DNA of 64,000 nucleotides from Crenobacter luteus. Lineage in GTDB: Bacteria > Pseudomonadota > Gammaproteobacteria > Burkholderiales > Chromobacteriaceae. Position numbers and translations under genes: made by a program. Where the stretch lies: contig NZ_SLXG01000003.1 of assembly GCF_004345725.1 (NCBI RefSeq), positions 124,001-188,000 on the forward strand. The letters run 5' to 3'. Below are positions 10,878 to 62,720 of the stretch, piece by piece (the stretch's first letter is position 1; each line of letters begins with the position of its first letter). The notes beneath the pieces are model-generated. The model made no database searches and was not told where the DNA came from. It was given only the letters and a program-made list of their open reading frames with translations.

Positions 10878-13085
10878 ATGGTTTCCGTCGTCCGATCCGT
10901 TGCCGATACCCTGGCCGACGCCGCCGATCACGGCCGTTGGCTCCAGCAGCTCTCCGCCTCGCACAACGAGTCCGAGCGCGCGCTGCTCACGCGCGCCTAC
11001 GAGGCCGCCCAGACGCTGTACGCCGGCAAGACGCTCGCGCCGACCGGCGAGGACCTGTTCGACCACGCGGTGGCCGCCGCCGCCATCGTCGCCGACCTCG
11101 ACCTGTTGCCCGACGCGATCGCCGCGACGCTGTTGTTCGCCGCGCCCGACTGCCGCGACGACTGGCAGGCCTGGCTCGCCAAGACCTTCAACCCGACCGT
11201 CGCCGTGCTGGTCGAGGGCGTCAACCGGGTGCGCACGCTGACCGAGTTCGCAAGGCTCGACAAGCTCGCCACCGCCGAGGAGCGCGCGCGCCAGGCCGAG
11301 ACGATGCGCAAGATGCTCTTGGCGATGGTCGCCGACATCCGCGTGGTGCTGATCAAGCTCGCCTGGCGCACGCAGACCATGCACTACCTGATCCACTGCG
11401 ACGAGCCGGTGCGGCTGAAGATCGCGCAGGAGACGATGGACATCTTCGCGCCGCTGGCCAACCGGCTCGGCGTCTGGCAGATCAAGTGGGAGCTCGAAGA
11501 CCTCGCCTTCCGTCACCTGCACCCGGTCGAGTACAAGAAGATCGCCAGGCTGTTGGACGAGCGGCGGCTCGAGCGCATCGACTACATCGGGCGCGTGCTC
11601 GGCGCGCTGCGCGAGGAGCTGGCGCGCGCCGGCATCAAGGGCGACGTCGCCGGCCGCCCCAAGCACATCTATTCCATCTGGAAGAAGATGCGCAAGAAGA
11701 ACCTCGACTTTTCCGAGCTCTACGACATCCGCGCCGTGCGCGTGCTGGTCGACAAGGTCGCCGACTGTTACACCGTGCTCGGCATCGTGCACAGCATCTG
11801 GCAGCCGGTGCCGGGCGAGTTCGACGACTACATCTCGCACCCCAAGGCCAACGACTACCGCAGCCTGCACACCGCGGTGATCGGCCCCGAGGACAAGGTG
11901 GTCGAGGTGCAGATCCGCACCTTCGAGATGCACGAGCACGCCGAATTCGGCGTCGCCGCGCACTGGCGCTACAAGGAAGGCGGGCGGGGGGACGCCGCCT
12001 ACGAGGAGAAGATCGCCTGGCTCAGGCAACTGCTCGACTGGCGCGAGGAAGTCGCCGACAGCAACCGCGAGGGCTTGGCCGAGGCATTCCAGACCGAGCT
12101 CTTCAGCGACACCGTCTACGTGCTGACGCCGGCGGGCAAGGTGCTGACGCTGCCGGCCGGCGCCACCGCGATCGACTTCGCCTACGCGATCCACACCGAC
12201 CTCGGCCACCGCTGCCGCGGCGCCAAGATCGAGGGGCAGATCGTACCCTTGTCGACGCCGCTGGAGAACGGCCAGCGCGTCGAGATCCTCGCCGCCAAGG
12301 AAGGCGGGCCGTCGGTCAACTGGCTGCACGAGGGCTGGGTCAAGAGTCACCGCGCGATTTCCAAGATCCGCCAGTATGTGCGTCAGCAGAACGCCGACGT
12401 GGTGCGCGAGACCGGTCGCCAGCTGTTCGACAAGGAGCTGGCGCGCCACCCCGGCGTGCAGCCCAATCTGCAGGCGCTGGCCGAGAAGCTCGGCTTTGCG
12501 CGGCTCGACGAGCTTTACGGCGCGCTCGGCCACGGCGAGCTCACCTTGCGCGCGGTGGCGCAGGCGATCGCCAGCTTCGCGCCGCCGCCGCCGGCCGACG
12601 TCGCGCCCGAGGACATCGTCCACCGCAGCCGCGGCGGCCACGACGCCGGCGGCATCCTGATCGAGGGCGTCGACAACCTGATGACGGTGCTGGCCAAGTG
12701 CTGCAAGCCGGCGCCGCCCGACGCAGTGGCGGGATTCGTCACCAAGGGGCGCGGCATCTCGATCCACCGCGCCGGCTGCACCACGCTCAAGCGGCTGTCG
12801 GCCGACGCGCCCGAACGGCTGATCGCCGCCGACTGGGGCGAGCAGAAGAACAGCGTGTTCCCGATCGACCTCGAAGTGCTGGCGCGCGACCGCAACGGCC
12901 TGTTGCGCGACATCTCCGACGTGCTGTCGCGCGACAAGCTCAACGTGATCGCGGTCAACACGCTGTCGCGCGACCTGAAGGCGCGCATGCGTTTCACCGT
13001 CGAGGTCAGGAGCGTGACCGACCTGTCGCGGGTATTGGCCCATGTGATGGAGGTCAACGGCGTGCTCGAGGTGCGGCGCGTCTGA
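10878..13085 (+). CDS. relA: GTP pyrophosphokinase RelA
   Basis: This 735-residue long RSH enzyme makes (p)ppGpp during the stringent response on stalled ribosomes. In the N-terminal HD region the usual LLHD pair is replaced (ATLLFAAPD), so hydrolase activity should be lost, as in RelA and unlike SpoT. The synthetase domain (about 230-350) has RPKHIYSIWKKM and the EFDDYI motif of RelA-type enzymes. TGS (about 405-465), a zinc-finger region with a CC pair (NLMTVLAKCCKP), and a C-terminal ACT domain complete the protein. It follows mutY closely. Confidence 0.96.
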   Translation: MVSVVRSVADTLADAADHGRWLQQLSASHNESERALLTRAYEAAQTLYAGKTLAPTGEDLFDHAVAAAAIVADLDLLPDAIAATLLFAAPDCRDDWQAWLAKTFNPTVAVLVEGVNRVRTLTEFARLDKLATAEERARQAETMRKMLLAMVADIRVVLIKLAWRTQTMHYLIHCDEPVRLKIAQETMDIFAPLANRLGVWQIKWELEDLAFRHLHPVEYKKIARLLDERRLERIDYIGRVLGALREELARAGIKGDVAGRPKHIYSIWKKMRKKNLDFSELYDIRAVRVLVDKVADCYTVLGIVHSIWQPVPGEFDDYISHPKANDYRSLHTAVIGPEDKVVEVQIRTFEMHEHAEFGVAAHWRYKEGGRGDAAYEEKIAWLRQLLDWREEVADSNREGLAEAFQTELFSDTVYVLTPAGKVLTLPAGATAIDFAYAIHTDLGHRCRGAKIEGQIVPLSTPLENGQRVEILAAKEGGPSVNWLHEGWVKSHRAISKIRQYVRQQNADVVRETGRQLFDKELARHPGVQPNLQALAEKLGFARLDELYGALGHGELTLRAVAQAIASFAPPPPADVAPEDIVHRSRGGHDAGGILIEGVDNLMTVLAKCCKPAPPDAVAGFVTKGRGISIHRAGCTTLKRLSADAPERLIAADWGEQKNSVFPIDLEVLARDRNGLLRDISDVLSRDKLNVIAVNTLSRDLKARMRFTVEVRSVTDLSRVLAHVMEVNGVLEVRRV

Positions 13086-13212
13086 AACCGGGCGGCCGCC
13101 GCAAACGCCGCGCCGGGCGGGATTGCTGCAAGTGCTTGGACTGGCAGGGAAATCCTTGCTTTATGGGGTTTTCCCGGATGTTGCGCCGCGCATACTGCAC
13201 TGCACAAAAATC

Positions 13213-13241
13213 TTGCCAAGATTATTACGCTCGCCAATAAT
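13213..13241 (+). promoter_or_regulatory. promoter of a candidate small RNA
   Basis: TTGCCA (13213-13218), exactly 17 bases, then AATAAT (13236-13241) make a good sigma70-like promoter in the relA-rplM gap. No coding frame with a ribosome site follows before the terminator at 13323. Confidence 0.6.
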
Positions 13242-13247
13242 TGGCAT

Positions 13248-13356
13248 TGCATCAGGACGTGGCACGCACCGTGTGCGTTTTGGTGTTGTCTCCTCCATCC
13301 TCCTTCCATAAGGTGGAACTTGGCGCAATCGGCCCCGTCCGGTTGCGCGTTTTTTT
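13248..13356 (+). ncRNA. candidate trans-acting small RNA, about 108 nt
   Basis: This is a self-contained transcription unit in the 384-base gap between relA and rplM, predicted from a 17-spaced promoter (13213-13241) and a strong intrinsic terminator ending at 13356. The predicted RNA has a short 5' hairpin (GCACGC, ACC loop, GTGTGC), then a single-stranded C/U-rich stretch with two CCUCC motifs, and then the terminator with a seven-U tail. The CU-rich stretch could pair with Shine-Dalgarno sequences, as in many Hfq-dependent small RNAs. It could instead be a leader/attenuator of rplM, but rplM has its own strong promoter downstream of the terminator. No known RNA family was recognised. Confidence 0.5.
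13323..13356 (+). terminator. strong intrinsic terminator upstream of rplM
   Basis: A 10-bp stem GCGCAATCGG / CCGGTTGCGC (one G-U pair) with a CCCCGT loop is followed by one G and seven T. It ends the candidate small RNA and also blocks relA read-through into rplM. Confidence 0.9.
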
Positions 13357-13406: not shown

Positions 13407-13435
13407 TTGACAGGTCCAACCCCCTGTAATAGAAT
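13407..13435 (+). promoter_or_regulatory. rplM-rpsI promoter
   Basis: A consensus TTGACA (13407-13412), 17 bases, then TAGAAT (13430-13435) lies 34 bases before the rplM start. This is the near-ideal promoter expected for a ribosomal protein operon. Confidence 0.88.
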
Positions 13436-13469
13436 CCGGAACTTTCAAGAATTACGATGGAAGAGTTCC

Positions 13470-13898
13470 ATGAAGACCTTTTCTGCCAAGCCGCATGAGG
13501 TTAAGCGCGAGTGGTTCGTGGTCGATGCAACCGACAAGGTGCTCGGCCGTGTCGCTGCTGAAGTCGCCCGTCGTCTGCGCGGCAAGCACAAGCCGGAATT
13601 TACCCCGCACGTGGACACCGGCGACTACATCGTCGTGATCAACGCCGACAAGCTGCGCGTGACCGGTGCCAAGGCTCAGGACAAGAAATACTACCGTCAC
13701 TCGGGTTACCCGGGTGGTATCTACGAGCGCTCGTTCACCGAAATGCAGAACCAGTTCCCGGAACGCGTTCTGGAAAAAGCGGTGAAGGGCATGCTGCCGA
13801 AAGGCCCGCTCGGCTACGCCATGATCAAGAAGCTCAAGGTGTACGCCGGTGGCGAACATCCGCACGCCGCCCAGCAGCCGCAAGTGCTGGAATTCTGA
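13470..13898 (+). CDS. rplM: 50S ribosomal protein L13
   Basis: This 142-residue large-subunit protein starts [15 protein letters not shown] and carries the family stretches [30 protein letters not shown] and [12 protein letters not shown]. The length matches L13. A GATGGAAGAG-type ribosome site precedes the ATG. Codon use is more biased than in neighbouring genes (CGT and GTC/GTG preferred), as expected for a highly expressed gene. It forms the usual two-gene operon with rpsI, 16 bases apart. Confidence 0.98.
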
Positions 13899-52564: not shown

Positions 52565-53428
52565 TCACGCGGCGCGCTGCGGCGGCGCGTGCCCGACGTC
52601 GGCGAGGATGCGACCCGCCATCGCAAGCTCGGCCAAGCCCGGCGCGAACACGTGTACGCCGGGTGCGCCGGCGTCGATCAGTTGCGTCACCAGCCGCACG
52701 CCGACCTCGTGCCCGAAGTCCGACAGCGCGGCCGCGTCGCCGCCGCAGGCGTCGAGCGTGCGGCGCATCCAGCGCGGCATTTCGACGCCGCGCAGCTCGG
52801 CCAACCTCGCCATCGACGGGCGCGTCAAGGGGAGCAGCCCCGGCACGATGGGCAGCGTCACGCCGGCCGCGCGCGCCGCGTCGACGAAGTGGCGGTAGGC
52901 GTCGACGTTGTAGAAGTACTGGGTGACCGCGCCGGTCGCGCCGGCGTCCTGTTTGGCCCGCAGCGCGGCGAGGTCCGCGTGCGCGTTTTTCGCCTGCGGG
53001 TGGACCTCGGGGTAGGCGGCGACGAGCAGCTCGGGACGGCCGCCGTGCGCGTTTTCCCAGTATTCGCGGACGAAGCGCACCAGATTGCTCGCGTAGCGGA
53101 AGTCGCCGCGCTCGCCCATGCCGGACGGCGTGTCGCCGCGCAGCGCGAACAGCGTTTTCACGCCGCGCGCGGCGAACTCGGCCAACCTTTCGGCCGCGCT
53201 TTCCCTGTCGAGACCGGCCGCCGACAGGTGCGGCGCGACGGCGTAGCCGCGCGCGGCGAGCGCGTCCATCAGCGCGAGGCCGGCGGCGCGGCTGATGCCG
53301 CCGGCGCCGTCGGTGACCGACACGAAGGCCGGCGATAGCGGCGCGAGTCTTGACGCGAGCTCGGCGACGCGCGCGTCGCCGGCCGGGAGCACGCCCGGAT
53401 AGAGTTCGATGCTGATGGGCAGGCTCAT
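52565..53428 (-). CDS. metF: methylenetetrahydrofolate reductase family protein
   Basis: This 287-residue TIM-barrel flavoprotein of the MetF family makes 5-methyl-THF for methionine synthesis. Typical landmarks are the active-site Glu in SIELYP, APHLSA, LRGDTPSG with the key Asp, AAYPEVHPQAKNAHADL and VTQYFY. Two positions differ from common MetF: SVTYGA is SVTDGA, and the C-terminal FYTLN-type motif reads HVFAPG. A ribosome site (CAGGAGAC) supports the ATG at 53426-53428. It is the last gene of the one-carbon cluster and carries three 9-bp repeat copies. Confidence 0.85.
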   Translation of the reverse strand: MSLPISIELYPGVLPAGDARVAELASRLAPLSPAFVSVTDGAGGISRAAGLALMDALAARGYAVAPHLSAAGLDRESAAERLAEFAARGVKTLFALRGDTPSGMGERGDFRYASNLVRFVREYWENAHGGRPELLVAAYPEVHPQAKNAHADLAALRAKQDAGATGAVTQYFYNVDAYRHFVDAARAAGVTLPIVPGLLPLTRPSMARLAELRGVEMPRWMRRTLDACGGDAAALSDFGHEVGVRLVTQLIDAGAPGVHVFAPGLAELAMAGRILADVGHAPPQRAA

Positions 53429-53562
53429 TTTTGTCTCCTGAAACAAGGCCGCCTCGCTCCCGGTCGGGCGTTCGCGGCCGAGGTCCGGCGCGTTCCTCGT
53501 GGGGACGCGGCCGGCGATGATTTTCTGTGGGTCGGGCGTTCCGGACCGGCGCGCCGGTGGGC

Positions 53563-54432
53563 TCAGCGGAACACCACGGTGCGGTCGCCGTTGAGGAAGA
53601 CGCGGTGCTCGGTGTGGAACTTCACCGCGCGCGACAGCGCGAGGCATTCCATGTCGCGGCCGGTCGCCATCAGCGCTTCGGGGCGGTGCGTGTGGTCGAC
53701 GCGCTCGACCACCTGCTCGATGATCGGCCCCTCATCAAGATCATTCGTCACGTAGTGCGCGGTCGCGCCGATCAGCTTCACGCCGCGGTCGTAGGCCTGG
53801 TGGTAAGGCTTGGCACCCTTGAAGCCCGGCAGGAAGCTGTGGTGGATGTTGATCGCGCGGCCGGCGAGCCGGTCGGCGAGGCCGGGCGTCAGGATCTGCA
53901 TATAGCGCGCGAGCACGATCAGTTCGCTGCCGGTCTCCTCGATCAGCGCCTCGAGCTTGGCCTCTTGCGCCGCGCGGTTCTCGCTGCCGACCGGCAGGTG
54001 GTGATAGGGCAGGCCGTGCGCGGCCGCCAAGGGTTCGAGCTTGGCGTGGTTGGAGACGATCGCGGTAATGTCGATCGGCAGCTCGCCCATTTTCCAGCGG
54101 TAGAGCAGGTCGTTCAGGCAGTGGTCGAGGCTGGAGACGAGGATCAGCGTGCGGGTCCTGGCCGCCGCGTCGACGAGCTGCCACTGCATGCCGAAGCGTT
54201 CGGCGACCTCGGTGAACTCGGTTTGCAGGCGCGCGAGTCGCTGCGCGTCGGCGCTCTTGGCGTGAAAGCGGCAGCGCACGAAGAAGCGCTGCGCGATGTC
54301 GTCGTCGAACACCGACAGCTCGTCGATGTAGCCGCCGCGCGCGTCGAGAAAGGCCGACACGGCGGCGATCTGGCCCGGCCCGCTCGGGCAGGACAGCGTC
54401 AGGATGTAGGCGGTGTGTTCGGTGTGGAACAT
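53563..54432 (-). CDS. purU: formyltetrahydrofolate deformylase PurU
   Basis: This 289-residue enzyme hydrolyses 10-formyl-THF to formate and THF, balancing the one-carbon pool. An N-terminal ACT domain (about 5-85) senses glycine or methionine in characterised members. The C-terminal formyltransferase fold has the NIHHSFLPGFKGAKPYHQAY motif and the GATAHYVTNDLDEGPII motif with the catalytic His and Asp. It lies in the gcv/glyA cluster on the same strand, where glycine cleavage supplies methylene-THF. Confidence 0.95.
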   Translation of the reverse strand: MFHTEHTAYILTLSCPSGPGQIAAVSAFLDARGGYIDELSVFDDDIAQRFFVRCRFHAKSADAQRLARLQTEFTEVAERFGMQWQLVDAAARTRTLILVSSLDHCLNDLLYRWKMGELPIDITAIVSNHAKLEPLAAAHGLPYHHLPVGSENRAAQEAKLEALIEETGSELIVLARYMQILTPGLADRLAGRAINIHHSFLPGFKGAKPYHQAYDRGVKLIGATAHYVTNDLDEGPIIEQVVERVDHTHRPEALMATGRDMECLALSRAVKFHTEHRVFLNGDRTVVFR

Positions 54433-62606: not shown

Positions 62607-62720
62607 GGAGCTCTCCTGACGGGTGTGCGGGTAAGGTCCGACGGGTCGGTCAGGCGCGGCGAGCGAATGCGGGGGCAGACGGGACTCGGGCGCGCATGAC
62701 CTGACGTCGGTTGGCGCCCC

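Follow-up and report, generated by a model that had tools for sequence, protein, structure and literature searches.

A conserved, rplM-linked small RNA gene of Crenobacter luteus and its relationship to the RF02278 and NmsR RNAs

The interval separating relA (10878-13085) from rplM (13470-13898) in Crenobacter luteus, two genes whose identities were confirmed by NCBIfam models, holds a promoter and a terminator placed so closely together that they could delimit a very short transcription unit. Does this arrangement correspond to a genuine small RNA (sRNA) gene, independent of its neighbours, and if so, to which kind of RNA does it belong and what could control it? We address these questions within a window of 64 kb, the whole stretch of DNA that was analyzed; all coordinates refer to it, and 'family' designates the Chromobacteriaceae.

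Anatomy, conservation and independence of the gene

The features of the locus are the following:

13192-13208, + strand: putative PhaR operator ATACTGCACTGCACAAA; differs at two positions from the PhaR consensus YTKNTGCRNYGCANMAR of R. eutropha; core pattern in 59/59 family loci
13213-13241, + strand: sigma-70-type promoter TTGCCA-N17-AATAAT (-35 box 13213-13218, -10 box 13236-13241); in 59/59 family loci
13248-13356, + strand: sRNA gene of about 109 nt, start placed from the promoter and end from the terminator; fold z -3.1; blastn homologues in 59/61 family genomes
13249-13286, + strand: stem-loop 1 (SL1), from the fold; 15/15 consensus pairs changed on both sides across families
13287-13297, + strand: anti-Shine-Dalgarno 1 (UGUCUCCUCCA), single-stranded, invariant in the family alignment; equivalent to alpha-SD1/SSR1 of NmsR (PMC5362039, PMC9973317)
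13298-13317, + strand: stem-loop 2 (SL2), weak, from the fold, letters nearly invariant; its 5' arm holds anti-Shine-Dalgarno 2 (CCUCCUU)
13323-13356, + strand: stem-loop 3 (SL3), intrinsic terminator with seven U; in 59/59 loci; 6/8 pairs covary
13407-13435, + strand: separate rplM promoter TTGACA-N17-TAGAAT, outside the sRNA; matched in 52/59 family loci
13470-13898, + strand: rplM (ribosomal protein L13), downstream neighbour; TIGR01066, 212 bits; downstream in 56/59 family loci

An initial annotation had described a promoter with 17-nt spacing, a non-coding unit of about 108 bases and a terminator with a 10-bp stem and seven T; all three were recovered, the unit measuring about 109 nt and the ten-pair stem (13323-13348) being followed by a G and seven T (13350-13356). 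In a pattern scan of the surrounding 1.7 kb, two promoter-like sites were counted against 0.2 expected from shuffled sequences, and nine terminator-like sites against 2.0. The predicted RNA folds at -43.1 kcal/mol into three hairpins, more stably than its shuffled counterparts (z -3.1). Two CCUCC motifs (13292-13296 and 13299-13303) do lie in a C/U-rich stretch as annotated. They are not, however, both exposed between two hairpins: the first occupies the single-stranded stretch 3' of hairpin 1 and the second belongs to the 5' arm of the weak hairpin 2.

A blastn search with a 221-base region against 61 Chromobacteriaceae genomes returned strong homologues in 59 of them, the two others being incomplete genomes. 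The initial annotation had named the disappearance of these two signals, promoter and terminator, from close relatives as evidence against its reading. No such loss was encountered: both are kept at all 59 loci, with at least 8 of 12 promoter positions matched and a spacing of mostly 17 nt. A 20-nt core, TTGTCTCCTCCATCCTCCTT, is letter-identical in 58 of the 59 and occurs exactly in 98 stretches of named genomes. The conserved stretch amounts to about 30 nt, far longer than CCUCC, and ranks among the best conserved non-coding stretches in the comparison. The exact core also turns up ahead of a terminator-like stretch in a record from a gill symbiont of Solemya velesiana (L149), a gammaproteobacterium. 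Genomes of family f33 carry two copies of the sRNA (G136, loci L246 and L253; G092, locus L247); in G136 one copy adjoins rplM and the other lies elsewhere.

The covariance search in related genomes advocated by the initial annotation relied on a model, R1, for which 23 aligned family members, and no sequence from outside the Chromobacteriaceae, supplied a three-hairpin consensus. R1 finds a single copy in the C. luteus genome, at 101 bits; of 300 genomes sampled from the order, 151 contain a match. Structure was assessed with 64 sequences representing many betaproteobacterial families, in an alignment fitted to the model. Paired cells reach 95.4%, a percentage that leans upward because of this fitting; more weight attaches to the number of compensated pairs, 23 of the 29 showing changes on both sides. 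Not one of 500 shuffles attained any of five measures, and pairing falls to 32-60% in slid controls where partners were moved by 1-3 columns.

Two explanations would deprive this unit of an existence of its own. According to the first, promoter and terminator would be juxtaposed by chance and functionless, and single-genome pattern scans do produce false positives; since the sRNA is conserved and covaries across families, this reading is rejected and its probability is practically nil. The interpretation of the unit as a real, conserved small RNA is thus well supported by sequence comparison. In the other explanation, the promoter at 13213 would drive rplM and the hairpins would set read-through of the terminator, making the RNA a cis-acting leader or attenuator. 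The complete terminator ahead of rplM and the recurrence of rplM downstream, in 56 of the 59 family loci and in many other families, are what such a leader would display. Yet rplM possesses the near-consensus promoter of its own that had been annotated, 3' of the terminator and matched in 52 of the 59 loci, and folding 58 loci revealed no alternative antiterminator structure. Moreover, the core precedes rplM in Chromobacteriaceae, Chitinimonas, Silvimonas, Iodobacter and Aquaspirillum, whereas the same core and hairpins stand away from it in Sulfuricella, Gallionellaceae, Tepidiphilus and Hydrogenophilus, so that a cis role for rplM is not general; the NmsR RNAs of Neisseria (PMC5362039) and the ncS RNAs of Burkholderia (PMC5688073) both act in trans. 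The separate rplM promoter and the homologues found elsewhere rule out the leader as the main reading, in agreement with the annotated view that the unit is not simply the rplM leader, and we regard it as very unlikely. The synteny of the rplM-linked copies nevertheless extends across several families. Adjacency to relA was dismissed as a functional feature, because relA adjoins the sRNA in some genera only.

The actual leader of rplM, GGAACTTTCAAGAATTACGATGGAAGAGTTCC (13438-13470), lies just 5' of the ATG and hardly varies among several genera of the family. It could fold into a GGAACU/AGUUCC hairpin enclosing the ribosome site; its fold alone is no better than that of shuffled sequences. Autoregulation by L13 through this hairpin is possible.

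Affiliation with described RNA families

The small-RNA reading of the initial annotation is borne out by conservation and covariation; what that annotation lacked was a family for the RNA and the putative operator upstream. When compared with Rfam, the sRNA aligns to RF02278 ('Betaproteobacteria toxic sRNA') over the full model, positions 1-64 of 64 falling on 13287-13356, which comprises the core, hairpin 2 and the terminator hairpin. The score is 36.4 bits, with E values of 7.7e-6 in a scan of 401 bases and 1.3e-5 over the whole genome; it stays below the gathering cut-off of 50 bits, and Rfam's present cut-offs therefore miss the Chromobacteriaceae copy of the window. NmsRb (RF02877) scores 26.7 bits (E 0.032) against a cut-off of 52 bits. 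The NmsR layout is nonetheless present in its entirety: SL1, a single-stranded anti-Shine-Dalgarno 1, SL2 carrying anti-Shine-Dalgarno 2 and the terminator SL3. Matches to malK-I, ncS54, Xoo2 and ylbH were far under cut-off, at chance level, and further weak RF02278 matches in the C. luteus genome were discarded as noise, 13 of 14 unrelated control genomes matching at that threshold.

The link to bona fide members is provided by R1. A rescan of 20 loci with Rfam placed 15 R1-found loci above the RF02278 cut-off, and another rescanned locus, found by R1 in a Neisseriaceae-like genome (L279, G187), consists of two tandem NmsRb copies of 88.9 and 80.4 bits. A model trained on Chromobacteriaceae alone thus retrieves both RF02278 members and an NmsRb tandem, from which we conclude that the window sRNA is homologous to the RF02278/NmsR group although it falls short of the strict Rfam score, and that it would work like the group's members; by these comparisons it is an rplM-linked relative of the already described NmsR or 'toxic small RNA' kind. 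On one gonococcal chromosome record, an initial look with R1 yielded no candidates to score.

The putative upstream operator and the predicted mode of action

The element ATACTGCACTGCACAAA sits directly 5' of the -35 box of the sRNA promoter, and its core pattern TGC-NN-(T/C)GCA-(C/A) recurs at this position in every one of the 59 family loci. It departs from the PhaR consensus of R. eutropha (PMC12849132) at two of 17 positions, with TGC and GCA intact, and contains the TGC-N3-GCA of Herbaspirillum PhbF (PMC3206438). By shuffling, the 115 nt upstream would contain a site of this quality with a probability of 0.0024; a single match means little by itself, as the 64-kb window holds eight PhaR-type sites in all. 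The C. luteus genome encodes phaR (TIGR01848, 151.5 bits). The validity of the consensus in this clade is supported by the phaR genes themselves: 14 of 22 genomes have it upstream of phaR, where 0.4 were expected; the full consensus site was not found upstream of phaR in C. luteus. Among 67 sRNA loci, the site accompanies the sRNA in 34 of the 50 whose genome contains phaR and in 2 of the 17 whose genome does not (Fisher p 6e-5), both of the latter with three mismatches. Counted by family, the proportions become 14/21 and 2/11 and the significance drops to p 0.02, therefore shared ancestry explains part of the association. The exact operator core is absent from 16 of the 50 loci with phaR. In the C. 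luteus genome, exact TGCNNTGCACAAAA occurs at the sRNA site only, so that a pattern of this strictness is of no use for defining a regulon.

With an operator consensus at the promoter and phaR in the genome, PhaR probably controls transcription of the sRNA, which constitutes a good hypothesis rather than a demonstrated fact; the literature searched mentioned no sRNA as a member of the PhaR/PhbF regulon. A broader proposal, to which we give even odds, is that granule formation would titrate PhaR, shift the level of the sRNA and thereby re-set the translation of carbon-metabolism genes, and that lineages devoid of PhaR would have placed the sRNA under another regulator, signalled by a TATTAGA-N-AAT-N-CTAATA palindrome that covers the -10 box. 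If membership in the PhaR regulon holds, the state of the carbon store would be read out by an sRNA. PhaR is a candidate upstream signal for this RNA family outside Neisseria and Bordetella.

Two observations concern the promoters of other loci. One of them (L067, G260) presents two tandem PhaR-type sites, CGCTGCACTGCACAAA and ATACTGCACTGCACAAA, ahead of the sRNA promoter. In many lineages without PhaR and without the rplM link (L099-L178 where rplM is absent and L241-L265, whose genomes mostly lack phaR, for instance L248, L251 and L260), a near-perfect palindrome, TATTAGAtAATtCTAATA, covers the -10 box; judging by their names, many of the carriers are sulfur or iron oxidisers.

The action of the RNA itself is best approached from its relatives. 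The NmsRs use two anti-Shine-Dalgarno motifs to repress TCA-cycle enzymes, respond to RelA and have verified specific targets (PMC5362039), and in the gonococcus the sibling RNAs govern the TCA cycle together with methylcitrate and glycine metabolism (PMC9973317, PMC13104608). Burkholderia ncS27 lowers growth and carbon-source use (PMC5688073, PMC10987360), while Bordetella S17 is Hfq-bound and represses a sigma-54 activator (PMC11722255). The C. luteus genome encodes hfq. The RNA would be made from a sigma-70 promoter of its own and end at its own terminator, and PhaR would tune its transcription through the operator (as sequence and co-occurrence suggest). By analogy with the systems above, the CCUCC motifs would pair, probably assisted by Hfq, with purine-rich Shine-Dalgarno regions, blocking translation of a set of metabolic mRNAs.

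Individual targets were sought among genes suggested by the relatives and within the window. Pairing energies between the CU-rich core and the start regions of gltA and prpC in nine genomes did not stand out from those of 45 window genes used as background, a crude set, and some gltA starts are uncertain; on this test the TCA targets known from Neisseria do not extend to these genomes, and neither gene is supported as a target. The best identified match in the window precedes the start of a second methylenetetrahydrofolate reductase (MTHFR)-like gene (52567-53647, - strand; TIGR00676 below cut-off), where AGGAGACAA provides a 9-nt match to the core; strong as it is in the window, this candidate was rejected since it is not conserved even in the sister species. 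The window also contains a glycine riboswitch (RF00504, 62720-62911, - strand) that looks tandem by eye and lies upstream of a gcvH-like frame starting at 62607; the corresponding leader in the gonococcus, that of gcvT, is a target of NmsR homologues (PMC13104608).

Two further alternatives leave the gene in place and bear on its control or its action. The upstream TGCNNTGCACAAA element could be an UP-like or other activator site instead of a PhaR operator, the sRNA being otherwise as proposed. Its position beside the -35 box, its terminal A-tract, the 16 phaR-containing loci that lack the exact core and the weak association at family level would all fit this alternative, which we hold to be a tentative but serious possibility; it accounts less readily for the match to published PhaR consensus sequences, for the enrichment of that consensus upstream of phaR in these genomes, and for the near absence of the element where phaR is missing. 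As for the action, the RNA might be a non-selective anti-Shine-Dalgarno molecule, a growth brake blocking many ribosome sites in place of a defined metabolic regulon. Cloned RF02278 members are reported to inhibit the growth of E. coli (PMC4603805, PMC5688073), the two pairing motifs consist of plain CCUCC, and the tests on gltA, prpC and the second MTHFR gene revealed no conserved target. A general brake seems unlikely, however, given a conservation of about 30 nt extending far past CCUCC, the specific targets verified for the NmsRs (PMC5362039) and the behaviour of S17, which has defined targets and is non-toxic in exponentially growing E. coli (PMC11722255). We favour, with a probability of roughly 0.85, a stand-alone trans-acting sRNA with its own promoter and terminator, an rplM-linked member of the betaproteobacterial double-hairpin/NmsR kind, which would repress metabolic mRNAs through CCUCC pairing, probably with Hfq, and is probably tuned by PhaR.

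Comparison with known systems

Among the closest counterparts are the double-hairpin RNAs of RF02278, represented by ncS03, ncS05, ncS27 and ncS62 of Burkholderia and by the tsRNAs of Herbaspirillum, of which four were described (PMC7011215). They share with the window sRNA the UGUCUCCUCCA core, hairpin 2 and the terminator hairpin from end to end, and many of the homologous loci above cut-off in other families adjoin rplM, as in the window. The C. luteus RNA differs by its greater length, its strong 5' stem-loop and its score of 36.4 bits against 50, and also by its single copy, compared with three to five in Burkholderia (PMC5688073).

NmsRA and NmsRB of Neisseria (RF02877; RcoF1/2, NgncR_162/163) resemble the window sRNA in their three hairpins, in the position of anti-Shine-Dalgarno 1 in a single-stranded linker and of anti-Shine-Dalgarno 2 in SL2, and in a common CUUGGCGC terminator start. 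Their two genes stand in tandem between dsbB and lrp (PMC5362039), an arrangement absent from C. luteus, where the only copy detected by R1 adjoins rplM. The tandem-bearing genome mentioned above, the one Neisseriaceae-like genome examined, has neither phaR nor a PhaR-type site, whereas C. luteus has both. Bordetella pertussis S17 possesses a CU-rich block conserved across Betaproteobacteria, binds Hfq, pairs near ribosome sites and was related to RF02278 by its authors (PMC11722255). It differs in adjoining coq7, in being processed from a longer RNA and in its control by Bvg; the comparison made here is with its published description.

In the PhaR/PhbF regulon, governed by the regulator of PHB granules, BS1 of R. 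eutropha phaP1 (PMC12849132) occupies the same place as the TGC-N3-GCA found here directly 5' of the -35 box. Finally, a single covariance model, R1, joins two groups that had been described separately, the NmsR RNAs of Neisseria and the 'toxic' double-hairpin RNAs of Burkholderia.
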